Shown: positions 334 to 64,000 of the stretch, in pieces
How positions within the stretch are numbered: position 1 is the stretch's first letter
Layout of the letters: the number at the start of each line of letters is the position of its first letter
Source: Pegea sp. RAD2-039
Lineage: Eukaryota; Chordata; Thaliacea; Salpida; Salpidae
Direction: 5' to 3'
Length of the DNA stretch: 64,000 nt
NCBI GenBank assembly: GCA_034620365.1
Contig: JAQGEQ010000083.1
Location: 124,001-188,000, forward strand
The notes under the pieces: model-generated
Seen by the model: only the letters and a program-made list of their open reading frames with translations
Databases searched by the model: none
Told to the model about the DNA's origin: nothing
Position numbers and translations under genes: made by a program

Positions 334-3300
334 GTACTTATAATCCCTACCAAGGAAAGACTAGCGAATCCGATTGCTTAAAATGTTCAGAGGGTTACTT
401 TTGTTCCGGTACTGGAAACAAAAACTATACAGGTTAATGATTTAATGTATTATTTATAATTAATTTAAACATTTTATAGTTAGTTGCAGACTATTTTTAC
501 TCTGATAATAATTTTTAAAATCTGTAATAAATGATGTATTTGCAACAAACGTGCATCCTATAAATTAAATAACAAAGTAAATTTATTTAAGTTATCTATA
601 AATACTTTATTTTGAACAAAATAAAATACCCAACCACTAGCAGACTTGGTGAAATGTTATATTGTATAAAGGTCAATGTAATGCGGGTTACTATTGTGAC
701 GGTGGAGCAATAAATGCTACTCAACACGACTGTCCGCCCGGTTATTATTGTCCTGAAAATAGTAAAGATGCTAAGCCATGTCAGAATGGTTACTATACTA
801 ATGTAACCAATATGGAAACTTGCTGGCCCTGTCCTGCTGGTTTTTTTTGTGTCGATGCTTCCTCATTACCAATTCCTTGCCCCAAAGGACATTTCTGTCT
901 TGAAAAAACTGGTTATCAGTGGAAAAGATGTCCAAAAGGTATTTAAATTTGGTTTTTAAAGGTCAAAGTTTAGCTGAGCTTGTCAATTTATTCTCTTTTA
1001 TATTTTGAATTTATTTAAAGACCCAATGTACTACTATCATAATTATTAATTTTCTAGGTACATTTAATCCCGTGGAAGGCTCTTCAGAGCTAAATGACTG
1101 TTTGGAGTGCACTTCCGGTCAGTATTGTAACGGAACTGGAATGTCTAGTCCATTTGGTCCTTGTGATCCTGGGTATGATTGTAGAAGTGGAGTTAATACT
1201 CCGAAACCAGACAATATAACAAATACGGTGAAAGCAGTTTTTTAAATAAAATCTACATCTAAAAAAATCCGATAAATCTTTTATCTCTAAGATTCCACTG
1301 TTGGTTATTTTCATGTTTCTTTTTACAATTTTAATGATCTACTTTTCAATTACCTTTAAAGGGCAATGGAGGGCCTTGTGAAGCTGGGTATATATGTACT
1401 AATGGATTAGCTGAACAATGTCCACCTGGTAGCTTTTCAAGTAAACAACAACAGGCTATTTGTGAATTGTGTCCTCCAGGTCAGTTTCTGCAACTATTTT
1501 AGTTTGATATTATTTTAGTATTTTCGGGTAGGATCATATTGTGATGGATCTTCATCGATTCCAGTTGAATGTCAACCTGGTTACTTCTGCCCAGAAGGAA
1601 CAAAGTATGCTGACCAATACCCTTGCCCTCCTGGAACGTACAACAATGAAACAGGTGATGAATTTTAAATGAGAAAACTTCTTAATTTTGTATTGCTTAT
1701 TTATAAATTATACTAATCAACTGTAATGAGGTATGCACATTAAATTTGCTTTAGTTGGATGGATATAAGAAACTTGTTAAATGATATATTGAAAAAAGAA
1801 GAATTTTAACTGTTTGTATAAGCTGTACTATAAATAATATTATCTTTAAAGGCCAACAAGATGAGCAATCAGGCTGTACAGCTTGTCCAGGTGGGGTATA
1901 CTGTCCTGGAGAAGGTAATAAAACGCCAAAAGACTTATGTGATGAAGGTTATTACTGTACAAGCTCTGCTATCAGCTCAAAACCCCATACTTTCGGAAGT
2001 ACTAACGCTACATTCACGTTAGTAACCTGAAACTTAAAATGATAAATTTCATACTTTTTCGTTTAGTTACAAATCTGTATTCTACAGAAATGAAACATGT
2101 ACTACCGCATTTGATTGCGTTTGTCCAGCTCTGATCGATACGACTGGTGGTATATGCCAACCAGGTAAGTAATCATAGAATAATATAATCTGTACAAGCA
2201 ACAAATTCTAACAACATTTTTTTACTAAGTTTGAAGATAAGAATTTAGATTTATTTGTCAATATCTTTACAATGTATTTTCAATTTTAAATGTTACCTTT
2301 TATTTAGGGCTTGATCTACTACATTGAGTTAAAAACTTGTTATATAATTGCTTTATCTTTTAGGTTATTTCTGTCCGAGAGGTTCATCTAAACCTCTACA
2401 ATGTACTGAAGGAATGTATTGTCCCGATATTGGGGCATCAAATCCATTGGCAAACTGTTCAGCCGGATATTTTTGTAATAGGGGAAGGTATATTTTAGAG
2501 TCGTTTTAACTACAAGACATAATTTAAAATGGTTTATACTTAATTATCTTACCTGACATTGTAGCAATAGTTTGTGTAAAATTACGTGTTAAAAATACTT
2601 TGTATCTGTACATATACCACAGTATCTTTCTTCAATTAACTTTGTATTTAATAAACTTATAAAATATCATAAGTTATTTATAAAATTTTGTTATAGAAAT
2701 TAGGTTCATTTATTATTGTGTAGAGTAAAGCTCTCGACCACGAAGCATAATGTTTTCACAATTTTTTTTCAGTACTGTTGCGAACCAAAACAAATGTCCA
2801 CCAGGACATTATTGTCCATCAGGGTCGAAAGTAAAATGTCCTCCAGGCTCATATTCACCCAGTTATGGAAATAAGAGGAGAGATGATTGTCTTGATTGTA
2901 AAGCAGGAATGTTTTGTGAAGGTAACTTGATTATTACAAACACGTGGCATATTTCACCACCAAATAATTTTGATGTTATTTTTGAAGGTTACGGGAACAC
3001 AAAACCAACTGGTAATTGCAGCTTGGGATACTATTGTCCGGGTAGTAACACAAATCCAGAACCGGACACATATTGTGAAAAACATCATAAATGTCCAGAA
3101 GGCTCAGTGAACCAGACAGTTTGTGAAGCAGGTACATACCAGGATCAAAACAGGAGAGGTTCATGCATTTCATGTGAAGCTGGTAAACTGTGTGATCCTT
3201 ATGATGGTGAGTACAAATACACATTTGAAGTTGATTTAAGAGTTGAGTTTTTAGGTAACTTGGAGCCCGAGCCCTGTCCCAAAGGCCATTTTTGTCTTGA

Positions 3301-6300
3301 AAGAACTCCAATAGCACAACCATGCCCTGGAGGAACTTATCGAAATGAATATAACGGAGCATCTGAAGATGATTGCATGCCATGCGACGGAGGTAAAGAA
3401 CTTTTCTTTAAGTTTTAATTTAGTTCATCTAAACTACAACGATATCTGGGTTGTAACTTACTAAATTGTTTCTAGGTTACTTTTGTCGAGGGGGTGAGTC
3501 TTCGCCCTCTGGTCCATGTGACCCTGGCTTCTATTGCACCGGTGGTTCAAATGTTTCGAATCCGAAGCAAAATGAGTTTGACGGTAATTAAATAGTTCAA
3601 ATCTTATTAATATTTAAGTTTATAATCTTAAAGCCATTTTGTTATTATGAAAAATTACAAAATTTCAACAACTTTTGTTATCCAGAAGTACCAAAAGGAA
3701 ACGGCATTTGTCCTGCAGGATACTATTGCAAAAACGCCACAATCGACCCCTATCCATGTCCACCTGGTAAATACTTGGACAGTATTAGAAATGACGAGCC
3801 TTCTGATTGCAAGGATTGTCCGCCTGGCAAATTTTGCCCTCTTCCCGGGATGAGTGATGTCAACACAGCTTCTAACTGCTCTGAAGGGTGAACTTGATGA
3901 CTAATTTAGCAATTTTCGAAATTAGTTTTACTTTTTGTTCAGATATGTTTGCTATGGAGGGTCTTTTGAAAGTCAGCCCAATGATGAAACAGGAGAACCA
4001 TGTCCAAAAGGCTATTACTGTCCCTCTGGAACAAGCCTCCCTAAGGGCTGCCCACCTGGGACGTATGCACCTAATCTACAAATGAGTAAATGTAGAGATT
4101 GTGATTTTGGTTTCATGTGCCCTTTAGAAAACATGACCAATGCGGTACTATGTAAAGAAGGTATATGTACTAACTTGATGTTTGATGGACAACTAATTAG
4201 TTGATTCGAAGGGTTTTATTGTCCTGGGGGAAGTGTTTTAGGTGAGCCATGTCCTGTTGGCACTTACAATCCTACAACAGGCGCTGGAGATAACTCTTCT
4301 TGTCTTTCTTGTCCCCCTGGTGAATTTTGTTCAGAGGAAGGAGCAAACTCATCAAAAGGTGATTTAAAATCAAAATAAGACCCAAACTTTTCCTTAGAAT
4401 GAATTTTGACAATTTTTTATAAAGATAAATGTGAAGCTGGTTACTGGTGTGAAGGAAAAAGCTCATCTGCAACTCCAGGAGAAAATCCATTTAATAATAA
4501 TGGACCTTGTCCTGTGGGACGATACTGTGAAAAGGGAACTAAGAGTCCAGCTTTGTGTCCAGCTGGTACCTTACGTAATGTCACAGGAGCTAAATCAGTA
4601 GATGATTGTCAACCTTGCACTCCAGTTAGTTAAGTTTCAATTTTTTCATTTGATTTTTTCATATTTGTGTTTGGAAATTTATTATTTTAAAATAATACTT
4701 ACACTATTGTTATTTCAATTAATTCTTCTTTTATTTTAGGGGTACTACTGTGAGACGCCAGGAATTAGCGTTGCAACTGCCAAATGTTTACCTCGCTACT
4801 ATTGTCCTGGTAATGACTCTAATACTGACCCGACTCAATATAGTTGCCCTATTGGTTATTTCTGTGAAGAAGGTTCAATTAAACCTACACCTTGTGATGC
4901 AGGTATATTGCTACTAATCTCTTCATAATACCAGTGCATAAACTGATTATTTAATATAGCAACAGCTTAATCATTTTTTGAGTGTAAAAATGAACAGTAA
5001 TGTTGCAGTACCTTCACAGCTATCAAAATCTAGCAAAAAGTTAAACCAAATTTTTAATAGGTTTCTACCAGCCCGATATAGAACAATTTGAATGCATCGA
5101 ATGTCGAGCGGGATATTATTGTCAAGACTTCGAATCAGGAGATAGTAAAAAGTGTCCACCTTACTCTTATTGTCCTCCAGGTTAAGACGTTTTTTTAGAT
5201 TGAATAATTCTTAAAATAAATTCTACCTAAACTGACTAGGAAGTGTGAACCCAACAACTTGTCCCAATGGGACTTATACTAGTGATGATACTTATGGACT
5301 TGAAGATCCCGGTCAATGCACTAATTGTATTACAGGAAAGTACTGTACTGGCGGAAAAATCCAAGTGAGTCTAGTTCATCAAATATATTGCTTAGCAAAT
5401 GGTGTCTTGAAAGTTTAAATACTTCATTATAAGATACCTTCTCTACAATTTAGTAACATTTATTTTGGGGTTTAGAAAACTGTAATCTATTTCAAAAAAG
5501 ATATGCTTTTACATTTGGATTGAATGTTTATACAAAATTAATTGTTGAAAAAAAAAACGGTATAATTGATTTCAAGCCAATTTAATGTATATAAACCTTT
5601 TCTTTGATGATGTTAAATATTTTCAAACGTGTCATTAGGATGATTGTGCTGCTGGATTCTTCTGTCTTTCACGATCGCCTGCTCCAACATCAAGTGAAGA
5701 TTTCCTAGATGTAACATCTTGTTCAGCTGAAGCTACTTGTGCTGGTCGTTGTCCGGCGGGTTTTTATTGTCTTAAAGGAGAAATAGATCCCAAGGCATGT
5801 CCAGAAAATACAATACGTGAAACACCGGGTAAATTAAAGCAACTTTAAAAACGATTTTTTCCTAGTTTTACTGATTGTTGCAACAACAAAACGAAAAAAT
5901 TTCAATTTTAGAAATTATTTAATCCACGTTTTGAAAACACTTTTTAAATAAATGGTTTTCTAGGAGCAAGCAAATTAGAAGACTGTAGCTATTGCCCTAT
6001 AGGAAAATGGTGTCGTGCCGGTGACCCTTTACCTAAGCCATGTCCCGTTGGTTACTATTGTAGCTCTATGAATAGTAGCGATTGCAACCAAAAGGCTGGA
6101 CCTCAACCATGCCCTATATACACTTTCAGAAATATAACAGGTTTGTTGTTACGTTAACAAAAGGCTTCAAACAATTTATCATAAAATTGTTGCTTTTGAG
6201 CTAAACTAGAAATACTATTTCTCTAAATTTCAATGGCATACAGGAGGAGAAAAAAAAGATGATTGCTATCCATGCCCAGCAGGCTACTGGTGTAATGAAA

Positions 6301-8140
6301 CAGGAATATCTGATTATTCCAAATCTTCATGTGCTTTAGGATACTACTGTACTGGAGGTATAGAGTAAAATGAATGAATACTTCAAAATTATTACTTAAA
6401 TATTATCTTAATTGTAAAATCAGGCGGTCAGCCCCCAACAGAATGCCCAGCAGGTACTTTTAGAGACACACCTGGTGCTACTTCCTCAGATGACTGCCCT
6501 GATTGCACCGCTGGTTTTTATTGTCCCGATCCGTCAATAACAGGTGATAGTTATAAATTTTCTGAATGTTAGACTAAATCAATTGCTCTTAGGATTTCCT
6601 AACATTCATGGAGTACCTTGTGATATCGGATATGAATGTCCAACCGGATCAATAGCTCAAATACCCTGTGTCGAAGGATACTATTGTCCAGCACAGACAG
6701 GTTCAGCGATTGAGTGTCCACCAGGTTAATTACAATCTTTAAATTCTGACTACAAATCTTTAGAGCTTTTCTTTAATGAAATCTTGCATTTTTTTATGAT
6801 TCAGGTTATTCGTGTATCAATGCTTCGTCAGTTCCTGTAAAATGTCAGTATCCCTACTACTGTCCAGGAGGCACTGGTCAGCCCCTAAGTTGTGATGTTG
6901 GGTATCAGCCGCTCAATATATCAGACTCTGATCTGCGAGACACGCTTGAGAAGTCATGTATGAAATGTCCGGTTGGATCTTATCGAAACTCTTCAGAAGA
7001 GAACAAGTGCTTACCTTGCCCGCCTGGATACTTTTGTCCGGAAGGTGTGAAAAATCTCCACTAATTCGTACTTGTTTTAATATTTTTTAAATTTTAATTA
7101 CTATTTATGTTTATAAAATTGTTTGGTAAATACTCCAAAATAAGAATAAATTGAGTATACTTTTGCTTTTTTAATACTAGTAATGTAATATAAAGTAATA
7201 TTGAATGTTACAAAGTGAGGATATTTATAATTATTTAAAGTTGAGCAAATCAAAATCGATCACAAGATGTATGAAAATTTATCAGTTTCTCGAAACTATT
7301 GTACGATGTAAAGAAGAATCAACTGAAAATTCATATTTTTTACTTTAATTGATTATTTAAATCTCATCAAATAATTTTATGACATAACTAGAGTTGGATG
7401 AAATGAATCATTCAGAAGTATTTCTAATGAGCAACATTTCGATATTAGGAACAGATAATTATCAGGAGTATCCGTGTCCTATTGGCAACTATTGTCCAGA
7501 AGGAGGTATAACTGAAGATGGAGGAGTCACTGGAGCCCCTATTCCATGTCCAAAGGGTACATTTGGAACTGCAGTTGGATCAGTTTCTAGTATATGTCAA
7601 CCATGCCCACGTGGTACATACAATAACCTGATTGGCCAAACTCACTGCTTTCAATGTGGAAGCTCAGCAAATTCAAAGAAAGGCTCTAGTGAATGTGATT
7701 GTATTGGTAAGAATTTTGATTTGTTGATAATTTTATGGGTTGATGTATTTTGGGTTTGTAGGTAATAACAGAGCATTTCAACCTAGTGATGGAGCATGTG
7801 TTTGTAAGTCAGGATATATTTACTACGATGAGGTTGATCGTTTGAGATCAGAAGGTGATTATATCTCTAATATCAAACTGAAATCATAATAAGTTGTGTT
7901 TCAGGCAATTCACTCTACAGTTGCGAGATGTCTGTTGATGATCGATGTGATAGTGAACAAGCAAGAAGGGCAAGTGATCGATCTTGTATTCTTCCCGATG
8001 AGTATTCTTGCGATTCGGCCTGTCCTTACTCTGCTACAGGAGGCAAATTTGATGTAGATAGAGGAATTTGTTTATGTAATGAAGTAACTTTTCCGGAAGA
8101 TATTGATTGCTCTGCTGGTTGCAACACAGTCAGTGAAAAA
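334..8140 (+). other. GCC2/GCC3 cysteine-rich repeat array (28 exons)
   Basis: Exons: 334-432, 672-938, 1058-1227, 1362-1479, 1532-1654, 1852-2018, 2067-2164, 2364-2487, 2773-2921, 2988-3206, 3255-3392, 3476-3583, 3686-3887, 3943-4160, 4212-4358, 4425-4624, 4740-4902, 5061-5180, 5240-5364, 5639-5828, 5964-6140, 6244-6357, 6424-6543, 6593-6724, 6805-7044, 7449-7706, 7762-7854, 7905-8140. The translation repeats CPxGxYC / GYYCPxG followed by a DCxxC-type pair, the pattern of the tyrosine-kinase ephrin-receptor-like GCC2/GCC3 family. Most introns interrupt codons in phase 1, so many exons are symmetrical 1-1 units. The array is extracellular if the TM topology is right. The donor of the last exon is a weak choice (GTTGATAAG at 8141), taken because it keeps frame into 8442. 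Confidence 0.85.
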
Positions 8141-11100
8141 GTTGATAAGTATTGTTAATAACTGGCAAATATTTGTTTTAAAATTGGTTTGCGACCTTCA
8201 ATTTGAAGTTTACTTTTAAATAGTGAAAGTTCTATATTTTTACAAAACAACAATAAAAGTCTCAAAGGTCTCGAAAAAAGCTGTTACAAAATATTTGAAT
8301 TAAAATAATTATAAATTATAAAAAAATAATAAATATATAAATTTAACTTTGAAGTAACTTAATTTTAACAAGAAAGTTTACAAATAATATTTCATTGTGA
8401 GCAAAGTTTTCAACTTGATTTATAAATTTAATTTTTAACAGATGACAACAACTTTAGATGAAGATACTGGAGTCTTAAGTCTGACTACCAGCTTTGATAA
8501 TTCAACTTCTATATTTGATGTAAAAGATGTATATGGACCTGTTAATAAAATCAAATCAGATATAAACACATATCTCGTCCAATCAAGTAATAGTTTTGTA
8601 AAATTTTTCAATTAAAACTTTTGATTTATTAATTGTTTGGATATTATCGCAAAATTGCTATTTAGGTGAATATGGCTTTTTTGCAACTTTTCCAACTTCG
8701 TATAAGACTATTTCTTCATTCTTAAACGGAACACTTAGTGAAAATATTGATAAGCAAATTTCAAAAACAAGACGCAAAAGATTTATTCTTACTGAAACAG
8801 AAGATACGCCAAATTACCACGAAGGAACAGTCTATTTCGGTAGAAGGTAATTGAATTGAAATAAAATTAACTAACAAATGGTAGAAATTACTTACTTTTT
8901 AAATACTTAACTAAAGGAACTAAAGAATTATCTATTTTTGTAACCTTTAGCACTAAGTGATAAAAAACCATGATCAAAACGAACTACATACGTCCTTCAA
9001 ACGAAAAATTAAGTTTCCGTTTTTAAACTGTTTTGCAGACTTCTACAAACTGTGGATGCAACTTCTGCAATAACAAATGCAACAACAGTAAGCTTTACAG
9101 AAAGTACAGATATACCAGATAATACAATCAACGTCGAAATCGGTGTAGAAAATCCTGTTATTTGCTTACAGGTATAATTACTAGAATTTACAAAACTAGT
9201 TGTAATAGTATGAAACTACCTTCTAATTTATAAAAGTTTCAAATTTTATTTTTGCATAAACAATTTTGTAATGCAAAAATAAATCAGAATTAATTGAAAA
9301 CATTTTATATCTAACTTTCATACAGTTAAATGAAATGATTCTTTTTGGAGTTAACATTAATCAACTCCATAGGAATTTGAGTAATTACCCGGTTTACCTG
9401 AGAAATCATTTGTATAACACGAATGAAAACTTTGACTATGGTGCTTTTAGGTAAAAATCATTTTGGGAAAAAACTTTTTTTTTGCTAATAGGTTCTATGT
9501 TTAGTAAGTTTTGAATAATTAGCATCAACATGTAGTACTAAATCATGATTTAAAAGTTTAGTATAAACATATTTTACTTTTATAGTTTAAAAAAACGACA
9601 ATGAATTTTAACAAGTTAACCGTTGACTTATGATTTTTTTAGGCAATTACAAGATCAAATACTTAAATCTAAATTTCCTGTCAGTAAGTTTGCGCATATC
9701 TTCATCACATCAGGAATTTACGTTTTCGTTGATGCACAAGATAATGAAAGAGAAATGATAGTGAACGTTCTACCAGACGGTAATTCATTTCAAGTTTCAT
9801 TTGTTTACAGTTTGAATTATTCACAAAACATGCTTGACAAACTTTAAGATTTTTTTGGTCAGATATTGCAATATTAAATTTAAGATCGAAAAATATTTTG
9901 AAAATTTTTTTTTTGGATATTTTAGGCCAAGAATGTCCAGATTCTAGAATTGAGGCTCGAACATCATCTGGCCTTTCAAAAGTTGGTGTTTACAAGCTTG
10001 AACCACAAAATTTGAAACCAGATTATATTTTGATATCAGGTAAAGTGATTTTTGGATATAATTAAACTTAAATAAATGTTTTTTAATTTTAAGTGATTCT
10101 GAGTATTTTTGGATTTTCCGCAATTGTTCTTTTTACTGGAATTGTTGTATGGAGACCAGTAGATGCTGGAATATACCCAATGCGAAAATGGCTCCCACAA
10201 TACCGCGCTTTGGGAGAAGAATATTATCCACCATATAAATCGACTGATAAAGATGATATAAATAAAAAGTTAATTTAGGAGGTTAACTGTAAAATACTTA
10301 CCAAAATGGATTATTTTTCTTTTAGACATAATATAAATGCTGTTCGAGGAGTGGCTGAAGGTGCTGAAAAACCGCCATTGCCAGGTATTTTAAGTTTGTA
10401 ATTTTTATTTTGATTAATTTATTAAGGTCTTTAGGACCAGGTGAAGTTAAAATCAACCCAATTTTCAATTAAACACAAATGTTTTTGGTTTTATATATCA
10501 TTTTGAGTTACTCTTTCCACTAGATGAAGGAAATATATTGGAAAACTTTAATGTAAGAACACTTTACGACAAATTAGAAGATCAGAATTTACATATTGGC
10601 TCTCAACTAAGTCATCATCAGAACAGTTTATGTAAATTTTATGAAAAAATAAACAAAGAAACTGAAGAATTAAAGGTATTAACTAAATACTTATATAAAT
10701 ACAGTTTTCAATAATAACTATGATAATCATAATTTGTATTTAATGACTTATTGATGCCTTGTTTAATTGCAGAATTTGTTAAACAACTTAGATATGAATA
10801 AGTTTAAAGATTTATCAATGAATAATGCAACTATATCTGAGGAAAACCAGAAATCTATACCACAAAACTTTAATCTGACTGGTATTTACTTAAAAACTTT
10901 TAGTTTGTTTACTTTCGTATACAATTTCTATCGAATTTTCTCCGTTTAGATGGAATATCGCAACAGCAGCAGCAATTATTGGCATCATTAGAAGTTCTAA
11001 TTGATAAACTCAACAGGGGAAAGGTTTGTTAAATGAAACTTTAAATTTTAATCTTTAAATTTTATACTGTGTCAAATGGCTACTTTAAACAAGAGAACAA

Positions 11101-20340: not shown

Positions 20341-21702
20341 AAGATAAAATCTACATAGAAATCATATATAAAATATTATTTAATTTGTGTCAACCTTTTT
20401 CATAATTCATCTGATTTTTTGCTTTGATTTTTGCCACTTTTGTAAAATAATTAAATCATTTTTATTCCACTTCTTATAATCCACTGTTATATTTTCTCTT
20501 TAGAAGCACTTGAACTTTTCAGTTACCATTTCTATATATTATGAAAATATCGATGTAATGTGATTATAATTTGTTTTTATTTGCATATTATAAATTTATG
20601 TATATGCTGAAGTAATAAAACTTGCACAGGAAGAAATGTGGTTGTAAACAAATCTTCTCAAATCTGTTAATTATTAAAACATTAAATTGATGTACAAATC
20701 ATAAAAAATATTTAGCGCTGAGATTTTGAGCTGGAATTACTTTAGCAATTAGATGAGTCACAAACATTAATATGAAATTAGTGATATCTCGCTCACAGTA
20801 TAAATACAATTTGAAAAATAAATCAAACAATGTTTGTGTTTTCTTGAAGAACGCAGTCCTAATGAAAAAAATTGTTTTAGTTTCTTTTTCTTTTGTACGC
20901 GTGTCATTTTGAAAATAACAAAATATCGATTTTTCAATCACTGAGATTTGAAACGCAATTTATATGCGCAACAAATGGAATCAGTTCAGTTAGTATAAGA
21001 TGAACATTTACTGAACAATTACAGCTAGTGTTCAGTTGAGTGAGGAAAAGAAGTACCAAATCAAAATAGCCTAGTTTAAGCCCAGAGTTGACTAAAACTC
21101 CAGCAGATTTGTATTTATTATTAACAGTTTTTAAAACTATTTAAGAATAACCAAGTAAAGTTAACTAAAATGTTACAATTTAAGCTTTAACAAAATTTGA
21201 TGCTTATAAGATTAAGAAGGTTTGAAAATCTTGTGTTTATTTGAATTTTTCGATCTCAACAACAAATTTAATATTGCTTCTATAAAATCAAATGTTGATT
21301 TCAATTTAGTTGGAATTTTATAGCAAATAAAAATGCAGAAAGATTAAATCTCTCAGACATCAGAATGTACTTGCTGCTCAGTAATTAAGGTTTTTCAGTT
21401 TGTTTTAGTTTGTTTTAGTGCCTTATAAAGCAAATTTAATTTTTGGTGGCAATAGCTTCTTCTAAGAAATAACAAACGTAAAACTTATAAATAATTAATT
21501 GAAAATAGCAAAGCGTTTTTCCTTGTAGAAGGTTTAAGCTTAACTATAAAATATCTCAAACAAGCCAAGTTAGTCATTCTTTTATCAACAGCACAAATTT
21601 ATGAGTCTTAATCACTGTAGATACTGAATAAAAGAATTAAAGGGATTCTTTAAAATTATAACATTATTTTGCTTTGTCAGGTTTAACAAGCTTGTTTATA
21701 AA
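20341..21702. other. 3' UTR and intergenic
   Basis: This holds the 3' UTR of the giant gene and about 1 kb of AT-rich sequence without coding signal. A splice-acceptor-like pyrimidine tract ending in CAG at 21680 lies 22 nt before the start codon of the next gene. Confidence 0.6.
20614..20619 (+). other. Poly(A) signal of the giant gene
   Basis: A canonical AATAAA lies 274 nt after the predicted TAA at 20338-20340, in otherwise non-coding AT-rich sequence, consistent with the 3' end of the gene. Confidence 0.5.
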
Positions 21703-24700
21703 ATGAATATCAGAAACAGCTGTTTTATATTTGGAGTTTTCTTCTTTATCAACAAAGGTTTGTATTAAGACTTCTTCATTTGACATCTGCTTTCAGTTTA
21801 CATTTCATTTAGCGTACCGCAAAGTAAATAAATATTGAAAGACATTAAAACATCCGAAATAAATCTCTTAGAAATATCACTTAGCATTTTTTTACATTTT
21901 CAATCAGTACCTTTGGCATAATATATCGATTTATTTATTGAAATTATCAGTAGCTTATATTTAACTTAAATGTAATTTGAATAATCTATGCAATGAAAAA
22001 TGATCAATGTCATCTCAGCAAGTAATCCAAGCATATTTTGCAATTAAAATGAAACTCAATGATTCTATAAGTCACTGTGGTCGGTTTCAAGTTTGTTGAA
22101 TTCAAAGATGACTTTTTAATTGAGATACGTTATCAAAAATATTTAATGATTTCTTCCACAGGTTGTTTTGGAGCTTCCTTGAGATCTCTAACTAAGGATG
22201 TATCAGCCTCTAAATCCAAAGATGCTGCTGATGATAAGGTATTTATGAATTTTCTAAACTTTCACTCGTGTTTCATTTCAAACAAAATATTTTAATTTTA
22301 CTCTGTAATAGTTTTCTCAAAAGTTAATTTTTTTCATAGGTCAGTTGATTTATAAAAAAGGATAATTATGATATTCATATTATATTCATCAACCTGTTTA
22401 TTCTCATAAAATAAAAATATATTTGTTACATTAGCTTAAATATCTTTTTATTTTTCTAATCTGTCCAATGCATTTAAAGGTATAGTTTTATTATAGATAT
22501 GTTTAAAGATTTCATAAAGTAAAATGTATTAAAACCAGAAAACACTGGATATGTTTGATTGAACTTTAGATTTTATAGAAATAAAGAAAAATAAAACTCA
22601 TTAGTTTAAGCAAACTAACCTTTATTAATAATGCATGTCATTAGAGAGAGAAAATCCATAAAAGTCTAAATGTCAGGTTGCATGACGTTGTCATCAAAAC
22701 TCGACTTTCAAGAAATATTTTAAATTTATAGTTAACTGATTTACAGTAAACTAAAACTGCTTTATATAAATGTGTAAATAGCTCCAAAAAAGATTATAAA
22801 AATACTTACACCTTGTTTTAAAATGTTTTTAAAATATATTGAGTCGATAGTTTTCTTTATTATATTAATTTAGTTCAAAATTTTTCCTGCAAGATAATAT
22901 TCTAATCTATAAATTTCATCAAAATAGTAAGTTAAACAAATAAAAATTCTTAAAAAAGGGTTTTTAAATATGTTTTCTGAAAAATATATATAAACATAAT
23001 ATATTATCTGAAAGTTTTAAATCTCAAATTATTTGTAAGGATTAATTTTCTTCTTTTTTATATCCATTTTTACTAAAATATAAACTTTCAGCTACATTTG
23101 AAATGATTTTGATGGATAATACGTACATCAAATATGTTTAATCTTTGAAATACAAAAATATTTTGTAATGATGTAGTCGCTTTCATTGGCATTTTACTAA
23201 CTCATATACAAAGTTCCTCTAATAAATATTAATTATATTTTATGTTTTAATATCATACAAATTGTGTTTTTCTATGTTTGAAACATGATTCAAACCATAT
23301 ACAAGATTTTTTTGTTTGATGAAGGTTGTAGTTGATCACATGACAAATAAGATTTTGATTTGAGGTTATTATCAACAAAATAGTCACAACATTAACAAAA
23401 TATATGAAGATTTACTTTGAAAGTTCTAACATTTCATTCCTAGACACTATCTTGTATTTTGGAGTTGGTCAATGTAATCGCTTCACCGTCTGAAAATTTG
23501 TTGTCCCCTGATTGTGAAAAGCTGATGACATCTATGAAACAAACAAATGAATTAAAGCTTCAAGGTAAAAGTTGATTAAGATAAATGGTTTAAAAAAATG
23601 TTTACTAAATTCCAATTTTTCATAATCATAGTATTTTGGCTGTCTTCAATCTATCAGTCATTCGCATGTTTTTAAGAATATTCTTAATTCCAAAAAAAAG
23701 GTTTAAACTTTTTCATGTTAGATGTTTTAGAACCTGAAGACCTCACTGAAGAGTTAAACTCGTTAATTATGAATAATTTGCCTCAGCATCACTATTCCTC
23801 AAAGTACGCCCGAGCAAGAAATGAAGATGAGAATGAAGATGATAAAAATGAAGTTACATATTACGGAAGTAAATTCACAAGATTCATCTTCATCTCATCA
23901 TCATCTTAATTATGATGTTAATTCTTACAGGAAAACTTCCTAACCATTTCAACTCTGCTCTTAAACATTTAGTAAATGGAAACATTGGTAGTGATGATAT
24001 TGCTGCCGACTCTGATTTCACTGATTTACTGGATGAACCAAATATGCGATTTGGTGAACCTTTCGTAACAGCACTTAAAGGTTTTAAGGATAAGTTTCTT
24101 ATAGTTCCTATCAACATTGACAAACAAGTCCCATTGGTGAAACCTGACAACGATGAAAATGATGATATTATGCAAATGCTACCTAATACTCAGGGTTAGT
24201 TCAATTCCTAGCAGAACTATTTAACTAAAATGAATCTTTTAGCATTTTTGTGTAAATTATAAATATTTCAAAATTTGGTATTGTTTTCTAAGATGAAATT
24301 TGCTAAAATAAATTTTAAGATATATAGAAAAGAGTTTTGTTGATAAATACATACTTTCATGAACAAAAACGTATAAAAAAAGTTTTTAAGCAAAATGAAA
24401 CCATAATATTAGATTATAAAACCTTTACAGACTGCATACGTCAATTATTATGTCTTTGTAAAAGTAGTTACTTGTAAGAAATTCAACAACTTAATTACCA
24501 GGTATGCACATTTTATTTAGATGCAAAAGATTTTGGAGAGCTTCCTAACTTTGAGAGACTCTCAGAACACCTCGCTCAAGCAGAAGATGGAAATGATGAC
24601 TACTTTGAGGAAAGAAGATCTGACGACGATGGTTTGACGGATAACAATCAAATTGATATATCAGATATTTGGGCGGACCCTAACCTACTAGAATCGAAAA

Positions 24701-24879
24701 AGGTTTTCATTTAAAAAATCACTTTTATTTAATTCATTAATTTGAATAGTAAAAAGAATTGAACCTTTGTAAGTAAACGAAATGTTTCATAGATGGAATC
24801 AAATGAAGAATCTATTTACAAAATTGAAATGGATTTGAAAAAGTTGAATAGCGATCTAGAGGGACTAAAAGGTCAATAA
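21703..24879 (+). CDS. Chromogranin A/B-like acidic secretory prohormone (granin)
   Basis: Seven exons join in frame: 21703-21757, 22162-22238, 23444-23564, 23722-23868, 23931-24194, 24521-24702, 24793-24879 (310 residues). Exon 1 encodes a signal peptide (Met, Arg, then a CFIFGVFFFI core). Exon 3 encodes a Cys-ILELVNVIASPSE...LLSPD-Cys loop with 19 residues between the cysteines. Vertebrate chromogranins have a similar loop near the N terminus (C-I-V/I-E-V..., 20 residues between cysteines). The rest is rich in Asp and Glu (NEDENEDDKNE, DNDENDD, RRSDDDG) with dibasic sites at the exon 4/5 junction (Gly-Arg-Lys), RR and KK. The last exon encodes a short amphipathic helix (IEMDLKKLNSDLEGL) reminiscent of the chromogranin C terminus. 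Known role of the family: cargo of dense-core secretory granules and peptide precursor. Family assignment rests on motif pattern, not a database search. Confidence 0.7.
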
Positions 24880-26395
24880 GATTGATAAATTATCAGAAAT
24901 CTATCAATAAAATTGTATAAATTGGGATTTTCCATTTTGAGTGTACTGCACATTATGTGAAGTTTTTCTTTAAGTGTTTATAACAGATAATTTTGTATAA
25001 ATTTTGCTGTTACTACTTTATAGTTCAAGCTTTTGGTTTTAAATTTACTTTCTTAACACTTTATAACTTTGCTTATAAGAACAAAGAACCCTCGAAAGTT
25101 TTTGATAAATCTAATTTTATATATTTCTCCTATTTGTGATAATTTTATATTCAAATCGTGGTATGCGAAAATGATTGACTTTAATAATATTTCATTACAT
25201 ATCAGCTTTAACATTTGTCTTCATATCACTCAATATAAACTTTAAAATGAGATAAAATAATTGTAACTTTTTTGTAGCGCTTTATGTGTTCTTCACAATG
25301 TTTTATTATCACAGTTTGTACATATAGAATTCAGTTGTTTCTAAATAAATATTGTACGAGCTTACATTCAAGAAAAAATGCCTTTGATAAGTTTTAATTT
25401 TTAAATAATTTCAATTTTGGATGAATTCATATGTTTTTAGCTTTCACCAAAAAGTTAACCAATACTGTTATAAATCTCTATAGTAATATTGTTTTGGAAA
25501 ACATTGCACTTAATTTAATCAGAAAATGATTATAAAGAATAAAATTTAATCAGCAAGAAAGTTAAAAAAATGTTGCAGCTACAACCGATGCACTTTTTTG
25601 AAAGCATGGTATTGACTTTTGAAACAAATTAGAAAATGGATTTGATATAAATTTTCTTTTTTAATTATATAACAAATTCAAATTGTAGAATAATTTCTAA
25701 ACCAAACGTTTATACAAATAAGTTTATTGGTATCAAAAAAATGACATTGCAATACATAATGAAATCCGAAAGAAAAATTATTTAGGGTTTCTCTTTTTCT
25801 TTAAAGTTTTTCTTCTCTCTCCTTCTCAGCTCCTTGAGGAAAGCGCCATTCATATCTACAGCCACAATTATTATTTCAAATTATGATTATGTAAAGAAAT
25901 AGAAAAGTCTTAAACTCTTTTGAATTCTTTTAAAATTTATTTTATTGATTTATCCGTTTAAAAGCAGAAGAATCTTTAAATCAAATGTTAGCCAGCTTTT
26001 TTTATCAAATAATTCTGAAAATTTTAATCGTTAAGTGACTGAAGCACTAGACTAAATTCATGAAAAAATGAAATAACTAAATTTGTCAGTTACCAGTCAG
26101 GCTTTTCTCAAACAAGACTTTCTTTTATCAACTGAAATAATTAAGCGCTGATTACTTTGTATTGCTTCTATCAAAGGAAATTTGTAGAAAGTTTTTTTAA
26201 GTTAATAAACAATGAAAAAGTTAAAAATATCCTAAAGGTTAATTTTTCATTCACGGCTAGTTCATATCAATTATTGATAAATTTCTTCATAGTTACTGAT
26301 TAAATAAAAATGTGCTTCTTATTATTTTGATAATAGTTTGTAAACTATTTGAAGTTTCAGGTAAAAACCCATCGAAATAATATATATTGGTAATA
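24880..26395. other. 3' UTR and intergenic
   Basis: AT-rich non-coding sequence; nothing beyond the candidate poly(A) signal at 25344 and an acceptor-like TTTCAG ending at 26360, 35 nt before the next ATG. Confidence 0.6.
25344..25349 (+). other. Poly(A) signal, granin-like gene
   Basis: AATAAA lies 465 nt after the TAA of the granin-like gene. It is a candidate only, since AT-rich sequence makes chance matches common. Confidence 0.35.
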
Positions 26396-28973
26396 ATGAT
26401 AAAACTAAGATATAAGTTATTCTATATTGTTCTATTTGTTGCTATCATCTTATATATAAGTTTATGGAAAATTAACCTAGGTGTACACAGTTACTATTCC
26501 GAACTTTCAATAAAGAAAAATCAACTTGATAGTGGTGATAATACTGAAGAAAGTCATTTCAACTTAGTAAGTTTTCTATTCTTACTTAGATTTTTAATCT
26601 ATATTGAAATATATGAAAGTTGATAACGAGTTGTATTGCCTAAATCATTTCTATGAAAGAAAAAATACAAAATGTTATGTTATTTTCATTTGATAAAATA
26701 ATCTAATGTTGAAAAAAGTGAACCTATAATAATTTCTCAAATAAAACCTCTCATATTTGTAATGTTAATAGATGGGTTGCAGAAGAGAACTGGTAGAGCT
26801 TGCAATAGTTTCTGTGTTATATCATAAATCTTTTAATTATAACATTCGATTCTTTCTTGCATAATACATTATGTCAATTTGTTGACGCAGCAAAAGTTAG
26901 GTAATCCATGTAGCATTGCAAATCCAGAACAAATAGCGTTTCAAGATCAAAGTGAACACTAATTTTATTTACATGCAGTTTATATCTGTCAAATACTAAT
27001 GTTTATTAGTTTACTAAAACAAAAAACTTTTTTAGCATAATATGTATTCCTTACATATCTATTAAAAACCTATAAAGGGTTTAGTATATATTTGCTTTTT
27101 ATTACATCTTTATTACATTTATTACTAATTATTACAGCTTTCAGAGAGTAGTTTTATTATATCGTTATGATAAACTAAAAGAAATTTTTTTGAAAAGTAA
27201 TAACATATTTTGATAAATTGAAAGTAATCATTTATACCTTTCCATTTACTCATTAAATATTTAAATTAAATATTTACTTATTCCTCTTCTTATTAAAGTT
27301 TCTTACATTTTCAAAATCACAATTTCGTTTATTTATCAAAACTTCAGCTGTAATATGAAAATTATCGCGTAGTAAAATTTGATGAAGTAATAACTTTTTA
27401 CTCAACTATCATTTTATTTTAAATTAGTTTTTTTCAATCATTGCCAAGTAAATTATTTATATTTTATACCATATTGTTTCTTTAAAGTATTCAAAAGAAG
27501 CAGAATCGACAACAAATATAATCAAAGATAACTCAAATAAAAGCTCAACTAGTACTCAAGGAGTGATACTTTTCTCGTCTATGCGATCAGGCTCTACATT
27601 TATAGGAGAATTATTAAACCAATTTCCGAAAGTAAGCAGTAAAATTTGATAATTAGTTGTTGGTACGCAGTGGATGAAGTGTCTTTTTAATAGATTTTTT
27701 ATCTTTTTGAACCTTTACACCCCTTTGGTTGGAATATTTTACAAACAGATGAAAGAATGGATTTACTCCAAAATATTATGAGCTGTAACTTTGAGAAAGT
27801 TAAAGAGCAGTATAAAAACATAGTAAGCTAATGCGCTTCGATTTCATGTTAAAAATAAATGAGTCATCAGTACTGACTATCTTCGTAAGCTCTTTATAAA
27901 ACATGGTGCAATCGGATGTAGTATATGTATATAAAAAAATCTTATAACTTGATTAACTTATAATGACTAGTTGTAAAATTTATTCATACAAGAAATACAT
28001 TAACAATTTTTGAATAATGTTTTTGTGTTGTAAAAATTTGTATCTTAGTTTTTGTCCCTTTAACTACTTTGATAGTTTTTAATAATCTACCTTCAACTAT
28101 TGGTTACTCACTTTTAGATTAAAAATCTCGCTCTTAATGACTCTTCTGCCAAATGTGGATCTGACAACATTTGTTTCAAATATAAGAGCAAGTTTTTACA
28201 TCGAGATACAAATTTGTGCGATTTACCGAAAGCAACTTCCATCTTACATATGAAATGCCAAGTACCCTTTGAATCTGATCAGTTGAATTTAGCCTGCAAA
28301 CAAAGTCTTTTTCCTGCTGTGAAAGTAATTTTCTTTTTAATTTTAATTTATACAAAATTTAGAGCAAAATCAAAACTTTTTAATATAATTTTGTGGGTTA
28401 AATAGATAAAAATTTTATTAATTCAACACTTATTGCTGACAGATTATAGCTGAACCATTTGTCGAGTCCCTAGAAAAGTTTAGAAAAGATCTTCTTGGAG
28501 TTATTCGAATTATATATTTAGTGCGTGATCCCCGTGCTATTATCAGTTCTCAAAAGTTACTATTTGATGATTATGATATTATAAAACAAGCCAAAAGAAA
28601 TTGTGATTTAATGAGAAGGAATGTGGATTACATTAATTCAACGAGTCCTAACAACTACCTGTTGTTACGTTATGAAGATGCAAGTTCTACTCCGTACGAT
28701 GCTGCTAGTCGTGTTTACACTTTCTTAGGTATCACATTAATTCCTGAAGAAGTAAATGATTGGATAAAACTGAACACAGATTTTGACGGATATGATTCTT
28801 TTGGAACAATGAAGAAATCTAAAAAACATATTTCAAACTGGGTGCATGTATTGACGTTTGACGAAATTTTCATGATACAGACTATATGTAAAGATGTATT
28901 ACTGAAACTTGATTACATCGTTTTTCAAAATGAAACAGAATTACACAATAAAAATATGGGTACGTTTGTATAG
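26396..28973 (+). CDS. Golgi carbohydrate sulfotransferase (CHST1/3-type)
   Basis: Five exons in frame (26396-26566, 27488-27631, 27694-27822, 28118-28324, 28443-28973) give 393 residues, a usual length for the family. Residues about 5-25 form a signal anchor (LFYIVLFVAIILYISLW), giving type II Golgi topology. The PAPS 5'-phosphosulfate loop is SSMRSGSTF in exon 2, followed by FYLFEPLHP in exon 3. The 3'-phosphate site is YLVRDPRAIISSQ in exon 5, and YLLLRYED follows as in other family members. Such enzymes move sulfate from PAPS to GlcNAc, Gal or GalNAc on glycans and proteoglycans; the acceptor sugar cannot be told from this sequence. Exon 4 carries several cysteines (KCGSDNICF, LCDLP, MKCQ) likely forming lumenal disulfides. 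All four introns are phase 0. Confidence 0.88.
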
Positions 28974-33068: not shown

Positions 33069-33710
33069 TTAGTCTAATGCACGTAATGAATTCAGCTTTG
33101 CCTCAATATCATCAACTTCTTTATCAGCTTGAGATGTCCCAGCTAGTTTACTATTAGGTACAGAAAGGTTATTCATTTTTCCAGTTATCTCAATACCAAT
33201 TTCTCCTAAGACTTGGTTAACAATAGCATCTTGTTCTTCCTCATCGCCAGACTCATCAAAGATATCTTCCATAGCATCATTCATCATTTCTTCAGTCATA
33301 TCCATTTTAGCATTTTCTCTTTGAAACTGTTGCATTGTTTGAGCCAATTTTTTAGTATCCATTTGTTTATTCACTTTAGCCATAGTCTTAGATGTCTTAC
33401 CCATGGCATTTGCCATTTTCATATTTGCGTTCATTGATTTAGCTTGAAGACTAATTGAACCAACTGTAGCACTAGTATTATATGATCGGTTTTTCTGCTT
33501 TCTTAGATTAACTAACTGTTTAGCCAATACAGCACAAGCTTGTTTATTCCCAGTCTTAGCAGCTTTTTTGATTTCTAGCTGAAGTTTTTTTTCTTCCTGA
33601 TCCATCTTATTTCTATCTCTTTCTAGTTCTCTTTTCACTTTTCTTAACTCCCTGTCTTGCTCCTTTACAAGCTGGTCGCTAGTTTTCTTTTTACCAAAAA
33701 TACCAGACAT
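33069..33710 (-). CDS. CHMP2B: ESCRT-III subunit CHMP2B
   Basis: A single uninterrupted frame of 213 residues, the same length as human CHMP2B. The basic N-terminal half (QDRELRKVKRELERDR, KQLVNLRKQKNRS) binds membrane in this family. The middle MEMTEEM-type segment appears as MDMTEEMMNDAMEDIFD, then an acidic linker GDEEEQDAIVNQVLGEIGIEI. The C-terminal VDDIEAKLNSLRALD matches the MIT-interacting helix position that recruits VPS4. CHMP2B polymerises with other ESCRT-III proteins in endosome budding, abscission and membrane repair. The absence of introns is unusual beside intron-rich neighbours and could reflect retroposition, but the full-length frame argues that the gene works. A minus-strand AATAAA lies about 65-75 bp downstream. 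Confidence 0.96.
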   Translation of the reverse strand: MSGIFGKKKTSDQLVKEQDRELRKVKRELERDRNKMDQEEKKLQLEIKKAAKTGNKQACAVLAKQLVNLRKQKNRSYNTSATVGSISLQAKSMNANMKMANAMGKTSKTMAKVNKQMDTKKLAQTMQQFQRENAKMDMTEEMMNDAMEDIFDESGDEEEQDAIVNQVLGEIGIEITGKMNNLSVPNSKLAGTSQADKEVDDIEAKLNSLRALD

Positions 33711-39897
<6,187 letters not shown>

Positions 39898-42800
39898 ATG
39901 AAAGCTACAGGAACAAAAACAGTTTTTGGAGAAAACATAACAAATTCAAAACCAAATCACTACGAAAATGGTGTACAAGTGAACAAAAATGGTTTGTTAT
40001 ATTAATTCTACTTAAATTGAATAATTTTATTTATGTTTTTAAAAACCATGCTGAAATATCTTCATGGATTAAGGTTTCAAAAATATAATCTTCAGACGTT
40101 TTGAATTATTCATGGTGACCTGAAACTTCCTTAATTAGGCTATAAATCGGTCTTTTCATAATTTATCAACTAATGATTTTTAGCTTGTGTAATTATATGT
40201 TTTACATCTATACATGATGTATCTTTATATATATATACAGAAACTCTTGAATAATGAATATAATTCATAATCAGGCATCATCTTGCTACTCATTAGTTTA
40301 TTTTATCCTATACCATTCAAGTTTTGATAAACATTTTCAGTTTTTATAATTAATCATTTTTGATTACTTGTTTAAAATGTTTAAAAAAAGGTTTTTTATT
40401 TAATTTAGTTGGTATTTGAGCTCAATAATTAACTCTATTCAATAGAAAAATGAAATGAAACTTAACCAATAAACATGTTTGGAATAATCATTCAAGTTGT
40501 CAAAATATTATCCATAACTCCCATAATTTTAATTTGTTTGTTTATATTTTAGATCAACAACCCAGTGTTATAGAGAGTTCCATTCCTTTTATGTCAACTT
40601 CCTCATCTACTTCAAGTATGAACAGTCAAAGTATAAAATGGAAAACTCGTTACAGAGAAAGGTAAACAGTTTTTTTTATTACGTATATACTAATTAGTAT
40701 CACATCTAATTTTAATAACTAGCATTAAACAAATATATAACGTAATCTATTATAATATTAGTAATGGTTACTTAAAGTGGTTTATTTATTTGTTTTACAT
40801 TTTCCTTATTTTTCTAAGAAATCAATCCGAAAATGAAAAGAAGAAAGGAAATAAATTTATCCGAGGAGTTTTGAATCGAGGAAGGTAAAAATATTTTATA
40901 GATCAAAGATTTTATAGATTGTTCATTCCCTCTCACAAAGTAACATTTGGAAGAATAATTAGTGATTGTATTCAACTTAAAGTTGGCTGATGTTTCAGTT
41001 TAGTTGTCTAACTTGTTATTAAAATCATATAAAAGTACCTTTAAAAAGGGTGCTTTACTGTATGCTGCTTGAAAAGTATGTTTTAGAAGAATTGTTTCTG
41101 TGTTATCAGCTTCTTAAATGACTGAAAAGAAATTGTTGGTATGCGAAAGCTCACTTAAATGTTTAACATTCTTTGGATATTTCTAAGGCTTGAAAGCAAG
41201 GTCGATTAAAAACATTAAAGCATCAAAAAATTCATTTGTTGACAAGTGCTCGGTTGAAGAGATGGCAGAAAAAAAAATTTCTGATTAAATAAAGAAAATT
41301 GAACTTTTTTATAATAACTTTTTCATATGCAACTTATTAACTTTGTGAAAGTTTACTTTTAGTTAGATTTTCAAGTAAGTTAGCTAACAAAATATCATCA
41401 AAGAACTTGAAAGCTTTCAATTGACTAGATTTTCTTTATAAACGAAAAAGTTTACTTCAAAATTTTAAGATGCTTATTATAAATCTTGTAAAGCATATAC
41501 TAAGCTGCTTACTAATAAAAGTAAGACTCATTAATTCAATCCAAGCACATAAGATTAATTTTTTCTATAGAACTCTTAGGAGGAATATCAGACATAAAAA
41601 TGTTGAAAACAATGAAAAGCGTGGACGAAGGTTATTAACAATGACTAATGATCAACGTTTAAGGATGTGCATACTTCGTGAAATCGTAGAAACAGAAAAA
41701 GATTATGTTGAACTATTAAGTTACATTTCCGAGGTAATTTCAATATATTCTATTGTATCAAGATCCATCAATTGTTTCTTTATAAATTATTCATTTAGTT
41801 TAATTGTTAAAATGCTATGTATGTTTAGCAAATAAGAGGTAAGATAATTGCTCAATCCAACCATTAGAAATGTCCTACCTTATAAGTCAGAGTCTAGCCT
41901 AAAAGTAATTTTTAATTGTTATTTATTAATCGAAATAAATATTACTTAACCAATAACAATTTTCAAAAAATATATATACCAACTTTGAAAATTAATTTCT
42001 ACAGTCATAATAGTTAATTACAGTCACATTAAGTTGATAAAAAGTATGATTTTTAAATGTGGTATAATAAAAACTATTTTTAGATATCTTTCATATTTAA
42101 TTTGATTACAGAATATCAAACCAGATTTACATAAAATCGCGCATCAAGGTATAAGTCCAATTTGTACGAAATCATGTGTCAATCAATTTCTTGGGAATAT
42201 TGATGAAGTTCATTTAGTTCACAAGAAGTTTCTTGAACAGCTTCAAGCCTGTACTAGTCCTTTTCCTTTTCACACTAACTTAATTGGAAAAGTTTTTCTT
42301 CAATTTGTAAGTTTATTTTTTTAATAAAATGGGTTAGTGACTGAAAAGTATATTTTGCTTCAAACATAGAACTAAATGTCAACTTCCATTTATTTATAAT
42401 ATTAGATACAAATTTGTTTCTAGATTTCAGATTTATTCGAGGCTTATAATTTATTCATGCCGTTTTGTTTTACAAAGTTTTTAATCTCATCAAAAGTTAT
42501 GTTGAGATGAAATTAAAACTATATTTTTAAAAGATTTCTTATTTATTTTCAGAAAGATGAGTTTCAATTATATGACACTTATTGCGTCAACTTCGCAATT
42601 GCTCAAAAAATTAGTTATGAATTGGAAAAAGATCCAGCGTTGAAAAAGCTAATTGAAGTTTGTTGCATTTACTTTTAAAATTTATAAAAAAATAGAATAG
42701 TTAACTTTAAAGAAACAACAATTTGGAATTACTTGAATTCAAATATAAATTCAGTCGATTGAAATTTTTTAGAATTCTTTATTTTGGAAAACAACGTCAG

Positions 42801-45800
42801 AAGATAGGCTATTTTTGAAAATCACTTAAACTATTTAGGGTACGCTGACAACTTATAAATGTAATAATATAAAAAATAATCTTTAATTTACATAGGTTTT
42901 GATTCATATTTAAAGACTATTTGATTTTGTATGGAATCTTATATCACATACTTAATTTGTAAGTTAGTTTGAGATTCGATGATTTAAGCTTATTAATTCT
43001 TAATTCATTTTAACTAGTTAAGCAACATTTAATTTAAATAGCCTAATCAGTAGTTAAATTAAAAAAGAAAATCATTTAAGAAATATGTTTTTGTTTAATT
43101 AGTGTAGACATTATCATTAACTAAAATACATTTCTTAAAAACAGTATTTAGTTGAATTTGGTATAAAAGTTATCCAAAATTACTTAAAGTAGAATTCAGT
43201 AAAAGCATAAATTAAAAGGAATAAATATAAGATTAGCAGGAGTTTAATCAGATCAGATGTCAATATTTCTCAATGTCTTGTATCATTTAATCCATTGCAA
43301 TTTTTCATTGAACAAATTTTGTAAGATGTGATGCTTTTTCAGTTTTCATATTATTTCAAGTTTTTGCTTCTATATTTACTTTTTGTAATTTTGTAGATGA
43401 TCTGACAACTTATCCTATTTTAACCGAATTTTAGTTTTTAGATAAGTCTACAAAATCGAACTTATTCATTTTTGCTCAGTTAAAAAAAATTAAAAAATTT
43501 ATAAGAGCTGAATTAACTCCAAATTAATTTTCTCAAGGATTTTACTTCTCATATCTATTAGACTTTTTTGAGCTGACTTTCAGTAAAATGATTATTACTT
43601 AGATATTCGAAATATTAGAGTATTGTAAAAATTATATAATATGATAGAAATGGAAGTCAGAATCAGCAACCAAATCTCGTAGCTATGTTAGATTGGAAGG
43701 ATTTATCATTTCGCCAGTTCAACGTCTTTGCAAATATCCTCTACTTCTTAGAGAGTTAATTAAAAGAACTCCACAATATCACGCAGATTTCAATGATACT
43801 ACAGAAGCTTTAAAGGTAAATTCAAATTTTTCAAACTACTTAGTTTTATAAATTAGTAAGCAACGATAAATTACTAAAATTTAAAGTACAGTAAAACTTG
43901 ATAATACAATTCCATTATAGAACTTTTAGGACACATGGAATAAACTTATATAATTAAATAGTAACCAATGATGATAACGTTTAAGTACTTTTTGAATCAA
44001 TAAAAATAAGCTTTACATTTGTTTTGTTTAATTTATAAACTGACTAAGTATGAAATCTACAAAGATTCATTTGTAAAAATTGTTTTCTATAGAACATTTA
44101 TACAAACTTTTTCAGCAAATGCACGACGTGACAGCGTCTGTGAATGAAAGTGAAAAAAAGGCAATTATTGTTCAAGCAGTTCGTGACTTGGAAAATGTAT
44201 ATGACAACTGGGAAAGGTCAGAGGTAAAAAAGCTTCTCAAAATGTGCTTAACGAACTTCAATTAATTAGAAATATGAGCTTTCTCTATTTGCATACTTTT
44301 TACTATTCTTATAGAATTTCAACTTGAATTTATATTGATGAGTGTACTTGCGAGGAATAATTAATGCTATTAATCAAACATTTAGAACAAATAAATTATG
44401 AAATGCAGAAATTATTTCTGATGAAAAACGTCGAAATAAAATGTAAAACTTCATCAAACATAAGCATTTATATGTATAATTATTAATGATTGAACAATAA
44501 AAAACCAAATATTGTTGCTGAAATGGCAGTTTTAATTTTTCAAGTAATTTTCCAAACAACTAGTTTCATCGATCAAATGAAATAGTAAATACAAACTTTA
44601 TAAATCTGACTTTAAATAGTCCATAAAAAGTTGTGAGTCAGCCAAGCTAATTTAAAAAGCCCATATTTATTTTATATAATGTCCACGTAGAATTTGAGCA
44701 AGAGTGGATTTCTAACGAAACGAGGAGGACTCACAAATAGTTCTTGGAACATTCGGTGGTTTACGTTGATCGGTTTTAAACTTTCATACTACAATGAGCC
44801 AGCAGATTTGAAGCCTCTTGGTATTGTTGATCTTACTTCATATGTTTCATTAAATGAGGATTCTGAGAAGGAAAGCGGAAGATCTTTTTGTTTCAGGTTT
44901 ATTTTTATTATATAAATATTTTAAATGAATATGTTTTAAAATAGAAACAAGATGTTCAGACACTTTCTTATTTTTTATCAGTTTTTAAAACCATATACTT
45001 TTAGTAAAGATATAGAATTTCAAATACCGATTAGAAATAGATAATTTTTATATACTTTACAATATGATCATTTAGTATCACGAGTCAATTATGCAAAGCT
45101 CTAACTACAAGGAGTTAGTCATAGCCGTATTATATTTTAATATATCGATATTATATATTAGTAATTATTCAGCATCCAGTTTTAAAAAACAGTTGATTTT
45201 TTACTCAAATAGTTTATCATGACATATGATAAATTAATTATTTCTAAATATTGTTTTCATCGTATTGTTAAAGTTTTAGCGACTTAAAAAATGTTTTGGT
45301 TTCTCTCATAGCTTAAAAAAAGCTTCTTGGCCCAACTGCTGATAAAACTTTAATAAATTATACGCCTTTTATATTATTAAAATGATATGGATGTTATTTT
45401 TAGCAGATTTTTTACTCTTGTTATTTATAGTATTGTACTTAAACAACTATTTAAATAGTTAAAACAATTTATTCAGCATAAATATGAAAAACAAGAGTCA
45501 TTACATGTATGCAACAAATGATGATGACAAACGTGAATGGCTGGATATAATACGATGGAAAATTCGATGTATTGAAAGGTAAGCTAATTCATAGTGAAGA
45601 TTTAGTACTTTTTAATTATTGCAACAATTTAAGGAATTTTCTTCAAACAATTTTAAAGTTTTTTCTTCACAATTGAAGATATATTATTTTTGTTAAGTCA
45701 TATGACTTTTATACAAGAAAGCTTGTTCATCTTGTCACAATAGAAACTTTAAATTAATATATTATTTGCAAAATCCTAGAGAAATACATTTTTAAATGAC

Positions 45801-63936: not shown

Positions 63937-64000
63937 GTGAGTGAAAAACTTAGTTAAAGAAGTTCAAAAGTTTAAAAATCAATTCAAATAATCAATTATG

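Follow-up and report, generated by a model that had tools for sequence, protein, structure and literature searches.

Chromogranins serve as standard markers of vertebrate neuroendocrine granules, belong to their cargo and give rise to several peptides. To our knowledge they are known mainly from vertebrates and their pre-vertebrate history is poorly documented; a search of the open-licence literature (titles and the beginnings of abstracts, most subscription journals lying outside its coverage) showed no chromogranin gene reported from a tunicate or from amphioxus. Tunicates are the sister group of vertebrates. Does a 64,000-nucleotide stretch of the salp Pegea sp. RAD2-039 (the window), in which an initial annotation proposed a chromogranin A/B-like granin gene at 21703-24879 on the plus strand, hold such a gene?

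The host lineage was established from an XRN2 gene about 27 kb downstream of the granin gene (51928-56900, minus strand), with many short exons and a zinc-knuckle-like segment. Its product, joined by eye from pieces of the window, is identical at 73% of positions to that of Phallusia mammillata, 73% to Ciona intestinalis, 70% each to Clavelina and Styela, and 65% to Ciona savignyi. Among the best 120 of 7,608 matches, the top match is a JGI protein (94%) and the named non-tunicates reach at most 62%. The genome had been described as non-vertebrate-looking, and among the named matches listed XRN2 is indeed nearest to tunicates. We reject vertebrate contamination as the source of the granin gene on account of this tunicate neighbour. 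A search of the same genome for COX1 as a barcode gave no match. Human XRN2 and CHGB presumably lie on one chromosome arm (20p11 and 20p12), only a hint, from one gene, of a shared ancestral XRN2-CHGB linkage.

Several other genes are visible in the window. A long run of exon-like ORFs at 653-8155 (plus strand) encodes cysteine-rich TNFR/ephrin-receptor-like repeats (Pfam Ephrin_rec_like, 1.6e-7 at 7388-7765; TNFR_c6, 4.1e-5 at 2729-3418) and, judged by eye, may form one very large gene with further ORFs of that strand, one near 10.1 kb that looks membrane-spanning and others, reaching to about 20.1 kb, that look like coiled coils. An intronless 219-codon Snf7 ORF at 33069-33728 (minus strand; Pfam 1.7e-41; CHMP2-like by eye) stands among intron-rich neighbours and is possibly a retrogene. 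A sulfotransferase, a RhoGEF-PH protein and an MFS transporter, the last of which we take to resemble SLC49A3, are found among 28440-28973, 41425-46302 and 62137-63937 (plus strand), and SF3A2 is located at 46864-47957 (minus strand).

The seven predicted exons at 21703-24879 (plus strand) join in frame into a protein of 310 amino acids with a pI of 4.41. All introns are bounded by GT..AG and their phases are 1,0,1,1,1,0. The terminal stop is the only one in the coding frame of the spliced CDS, the other five frames holding 11-48 stops, and at the local stop frequency 310 open codons would arise by chance with a probability of 5e-12. The gene region is 26% GC, with a GC fraction of 0.356 in exons vs 0.229 in introns, and an AATAAA polyadenylation signal (24906-24911) starts 27 bases beyond the end of the stop codon. 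The exon model originally proposed thus agrees with the open frame, the GT-AG introns, the GC contrast and the signal after the stop.

Exon 1 (21703-21757, ending in phase 1) contains the start codon and the hydrophobic core of a putative signal peptide, MNIRNSCFIFGVFFFINK, and exon 2 (22162-22238, phase 0) the putative end of the signal peptide and a short N-terminal segment. The most hydrophobic 10-mer in the region, CFIFGVFFFI at residues 7-16, has a Kyte-Doolittle mean of 2.93. Exon 1, which is a prediction, is short and 27% GC with a Phe-rich hydrophobic run; it is the least certain exon, because AT-rich DNA can yield a Phe/Ile-rich run by chance. An acceptor-like CTTTGTCAG is seen at 21672-21680 (plus strand), 22 bases before the granin start codon, and could mark a 5′UTR exon or a spliced-leader acceptor. 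Trans-splicing affects many ascidian genes, and for this reason the site may be a spliced-leader site.

Exon 3 (23444-23564, phase 1) carries a two-cysteine loop and the segment that follows it, and exon 4 (23722-23868, phase 1) begins the acidic body, where EDLTEELNSLI was aligned with YEDELSEVL of CHGA. The acidic body continues through exon 5 (23931-24194, phase 1) and exon 6 (24521-24702, phase 0), which includes RR253 and whose last residues are the dibasic KK281-282 (24697-24702), a putative cleavage site directly before the C-terminal exon. Exon 7 (24793-24879) encodes the C-terminal peptide MESNEESIYKIEMDLKKLNSDLEGLKGQ and the stop codon. A search of the species' own genome with the protein (E ≤ 1; assembly of 105.7 Mb in 387 contigs) gave seven matches, all of them the gene's own seven exons, and at this sensitivity the gene is apparently single-copy. 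The same genome contains six matches to the proprotein-convertase P-domain on four contigs (C76, C42, C20 and C3), one of them in a 695-codon open frame.

The protein has cysteines at positions 7, 20, 48 and 68, the last two of which (23453-23515, plus strand) enclose 19 residues in a loop near the N-terminus, C-ILELV...SPD-C. Chromogranins A and B have a loop of about 20 residues that starts C-I-[VI]-E, and the C-I-L-E-L..D-C of the window protein, read correctly at the outset, fits this form; the mammalian CHGA sequences have 20 residues. The strict PROSITE granin patterns, in the form we take them to have, find no exact match in the protein. As also first noted, the body is acidic with dibasic sites: the 310 residues include 63 D+E and 33 K+R, with dibasic sites at four places (RK134, RR253, KK281 and KK298), fewer than the 8-10 of CHGA given in an excerpt of PMC12074958.

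We searched protein and profile databases with the spliced product. At E ≤ 10 it matched no Pfam family, Granin (PF01271) remaining below its cut-off, and no entry in NCBIfam or PDB; none of 1,081 candidate proteins from nr, UniRef and metagenome sets reached E ≤ 10, and nothing was found in viral contigs. Bovine CHGA, as a query sequence 99% identical to a database record, scored 422.9 bits against the Pfam Granin profile and recovered 642 proteins at E ≤ 0.1. The best 120 of these 642 form our CHGA comparison set; all have the Granin domain and those with a named organism are mammals, while the other 522 may include non-vertebrate chromogranins. Queries of the salp genome with the whole of bovine CHGA, with exons 3-4 and with the last exon gave no match and missed the window locus as well, and the Pfam Granin and 7B2 profiles gave none, nor did the controls; these empty results are uninformative. 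We treat the Granin miss as a limit of profile detection that carries no weight as a defining biological feature. The fast-evolving CHGB illustrates that profile searches can miss such genes: it is second in a list of fast-evolving genes between zebrafish and coelacanth (Ka 0.98), according to the part of PMC5787515 consulted.

Pairwise comparison with composition-preserving shuffles gave a different picture at the two ends of the protein. Under Smith-Waterman alignment the N-terminal segment scores 57 against bovine CHGA (0/5,000 shuffles as good) and 50 against a provisional human CHGB sequence (21/5,000). Exon 3 scores 50 against CHGA exons 3-4, equalled in 9/50,000 shuffles, along an alignment that runs through the loop into the next segment, and against the same target the exon-3 ORF ranks first among 1,833 window ORFs (46; next 37). 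The loop itself is no independent evidence, because the gene was singled out by it. For the C-terminal 32 residues the score is 41 against CHGA (7/5,000 shuffles as good) and 25 against the provisional CHGB sequence, not significant at 1,714/5,000 shuffles. The C-terminus, compared initially with that of CgB, is thus chromogranin-like, but the resemblance is to CHGA rather than to CHGB.

The C-terminal match lies at the very end of the protein. The last 23 residues align ungapped and flush with the C-terminus of CHGA (score 34.1; 8/23 identical to the consensus) in a comparison with the 112 of the 120 CHGA records whose end has the usual form. This score was reached by 0/100,000 shuffles and by 4/1,000,000 in a larger run, and by only one of the 24,147 six-frame 23-mers of the window, the segment itself. 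Whole-protein identity to 18 mammalian CHGA sequences is 18-22%. An excerpt of PMC8201018 describes CgA and CgB as alike in having a disulfide loop close to one terminus and in the homology of their C-terminal sequence; the window protein has such a C-terminal segment at its end. HMMs of mammalian CHGA exons, which were built from 14 and 10 sequences and proved too narrow, gave 3.3 bits for the exon-3 ORF (6/1,294 listed window ORFs higher, 10/5,000 shuffles as high) and 5.5 bits for the exon-7 ORF (0/1,181 higher, 1/5,000 shuffles as high). Against the whole protein they scored −0.6 and −0.9 bits, values reached by 137/5,000 and 144/5,000 shuffles (about 3%). Profile similarity beyond acidity, on which the first reading had been made to depend, divides: the standard profiles find none, whereas the shuffles reject mere composition at both ends. 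Taken alone, the sequence provides moderate evidence for homology with CHGA.

Gene structure offers a further comparison, and here we used the exon junctions of annotated mammalian CHGA isoforms (aberrant or alternative proteins, not gene sequences), which give intron phases of 1,0,1,1,1,1,0 for CHGA. A read-through of intron 1 (Q-GERARG, record P0078) fits phase 1. VMKC is kept in four records in which exon 3 follows a different upstream sequence or opens the record, and P0089 starts with V; both fit phase 0 before exon 3. The GT inserted between LRG and DER in P0074 and P0099 fits phase 1 alone, and the in-frame skip of DER..LALQ in P0008 makes the following intron phase 1 as well. In isoforms that skip exon 6, the residue after QAELK/QAEPK is G, whereas longer records from related species have E there, consistent with phase 1 on both sides. 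After RRPE, the records P0085, P0008 and P0037 run on with V, E and R, as fits phase 0, and three partial records stop at RRPE.

The phases of the window gene (1,0,1,1,1,0) follow the order so deduced for CHGA with one phase-1 intron fewer, which answers the intron-phase comparison proposed with the initial annotation. Under two assumed sets of phase frequencies, the probability of this exact string is 0.0014-0.0016, and that of the CHGA string with any one phase deleted is 0.0055. The missing phase-1 intron is not assignable, since beyond the loop the alignment becomes ambiguous; exon 3 of the window gene may be a fusion of CHGA exons 3 and 4. In both genes the first loop cysteine lies three codons into the loop exon, and the last intron is in phase 0 before a terminal coding exon of 28 codons in the window gene and 27 in CHGA. 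Excerpts of PMC12074958 place most of the signal peptide of human CHGA in exon I, the loop cysteines in exon III and the C-terminus in exon VIII, and these excerpts and the isoform junctions both agree with the CHGA layout given in the initial annotation, with the loop in the third coding exon. The window gene has its loop in exon 3, its C-terminus in the last exon and a predicted signal-peptide exon 1.

Could these resemblances have arisen by convergence, in a tunicate-specific acidic secreted protein such as a neuropeptide precursor or a tunic or matrix protein? Features such as acidity, a loop between two cysteines and an amphipathic helix at the C-terminus evolve easily, no database search by profile or protein recognises the product, dibasic sites are few, and about 3% of shuffles reach the whole-protein HMM scores. 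Shuffles seldom match either end, however (4/1,000,000 and 9/50,000), and convergence does not predict intron phases and exon borders that agree with those deduced for CHGA. We reject convergence on these two grounds, the end-shuffle tests and the CHGA-like phases and borders, and consider it improbable. The acidity and dibasic sites are common to granins, so the gene might instead belong to another member of the group outside the CHGA/CHGB branch (secretogranin II, VGF or other). The consulted text of PMC8201018 notes that SCG2 has, about 120 residues before its end, a sequence weakly corresponding to the C-terminal segment, and describes SCG2 as without the disulfide loop and without the homologous C-terminal domain; the window gene has both, with its C-terminal segment forming the very end of the protein, which makes such membership very unlikely. 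A pseudogene derived from a chromogranin, or a model that is wrong in part, from which no granule protein is made, exon 1 being the likeliest error as a short, AT-rich and Phe-rich exon, is hardly to be expected of 310 open codons in seven exons with GT-AG borders throughout, no frame break and no second copy found.

We therefore regard this apparently single-copy gene as very probably the tunicate orthologue of the gene ancestral to vertebrate CHGA and CHGB, because both ends match CHGA beyond composition and the phases follow the CHGA order, and because the seven-exon model is open, the host is a tunicate, proprotein-convertase P-domains occur on four contigs and the gene is found once. The reading as a chromogranin A/B-like granin gene, with which the analysis began, is borne out by the shuffle tests at both ends and the intron phases, and the results support a new CHGA/CHGB family member, highly diverged and from outside the vertebrates.

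Judged by its homology and anatomy, the product is best understood as a granule cargo that would also act as a condensing protein and peptide precursor. The predicted signal peptide would direct the protein into the ER; for sorting to the regulated secretory pathway it would rely on the closed Cys48-Cys68 loop and the stretch that follows. Its acidic body would bind calcium and, in the low-pH Golgi and immature granule, would aggregate and so help to condense dense-core granule cargo, and prohormone convertases would cleave at RK134, RR253 and KK281. A cut at KK281 would free a 28-residue C-terminal peptide at what we take to be the position of vertebrate serpinin, and its release could proceed as it does in vertebrates because the KK that ends exon 6 matches the place of an RR in CHGA. 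Serpinin is assigned to CHGA exons VII and VIII in the part of PMC12074958 consulted.

The ancestor of tunicates and vertebrates probably had a single chromogranin with the loop, the following segment and an excisable serpinin-like C-terminal peptide, of which CHGA and CHGB would be later duplicates. If so, chromogranins originated before vertebrates, chromogranin cargo predates neural-crest chromaffin cells, and more non-vertebrate chromogranins may sit undetected below the profile threshold. The tunicate gene helps to separate ancestral parts (loop, following segment and C-terminal peptide) from possible later additions (catestatin, pancreastatin and WE-14), and would allow knockdown to be aimed at a single gene in an animal whose nervous system is very small.

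Among known granins, secretogranin V/7B2 is likewise a granin-group neuroendocrine protein that has a non-vertebrate orthologue, reported from sea urchin in the consulted part of PMC6209648; it differs in that the window protein matched no Pfam family. CHGB shares the two-cysteine loop near the N-terminus, the acidic body and the C-terminal segment, but the C-terminal similarity to its provisional sequence is not significant, and human CHGB has 677 residues (in an excerpt of PMC8201018) vs 310 in the window protein. CHGA differs from the window protein in length (449 residues in the bovine protein vs 310), in a loop of 20 rather than 19 residues and in having eight rather than seven coding exons. 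The part of CHGA that presumably holds catestatin, pancreastatin and WE-14, as we place them on the alignment, is mostly a gap. The likeness to CHGA extends from a predicted signal-peptide exon 1, a short second exon and a loop exon starting at Cys minus 3, through the segment after the loop, which aligns with ERILSILRHQNLLKELQD of CHGA, and the acidic body, to a dibasic site before the terminal exon (KK adjacent to it in the window gene, RR plus two residues in CHGA), a terminal exon in phase 0 and a flush C-terminus.
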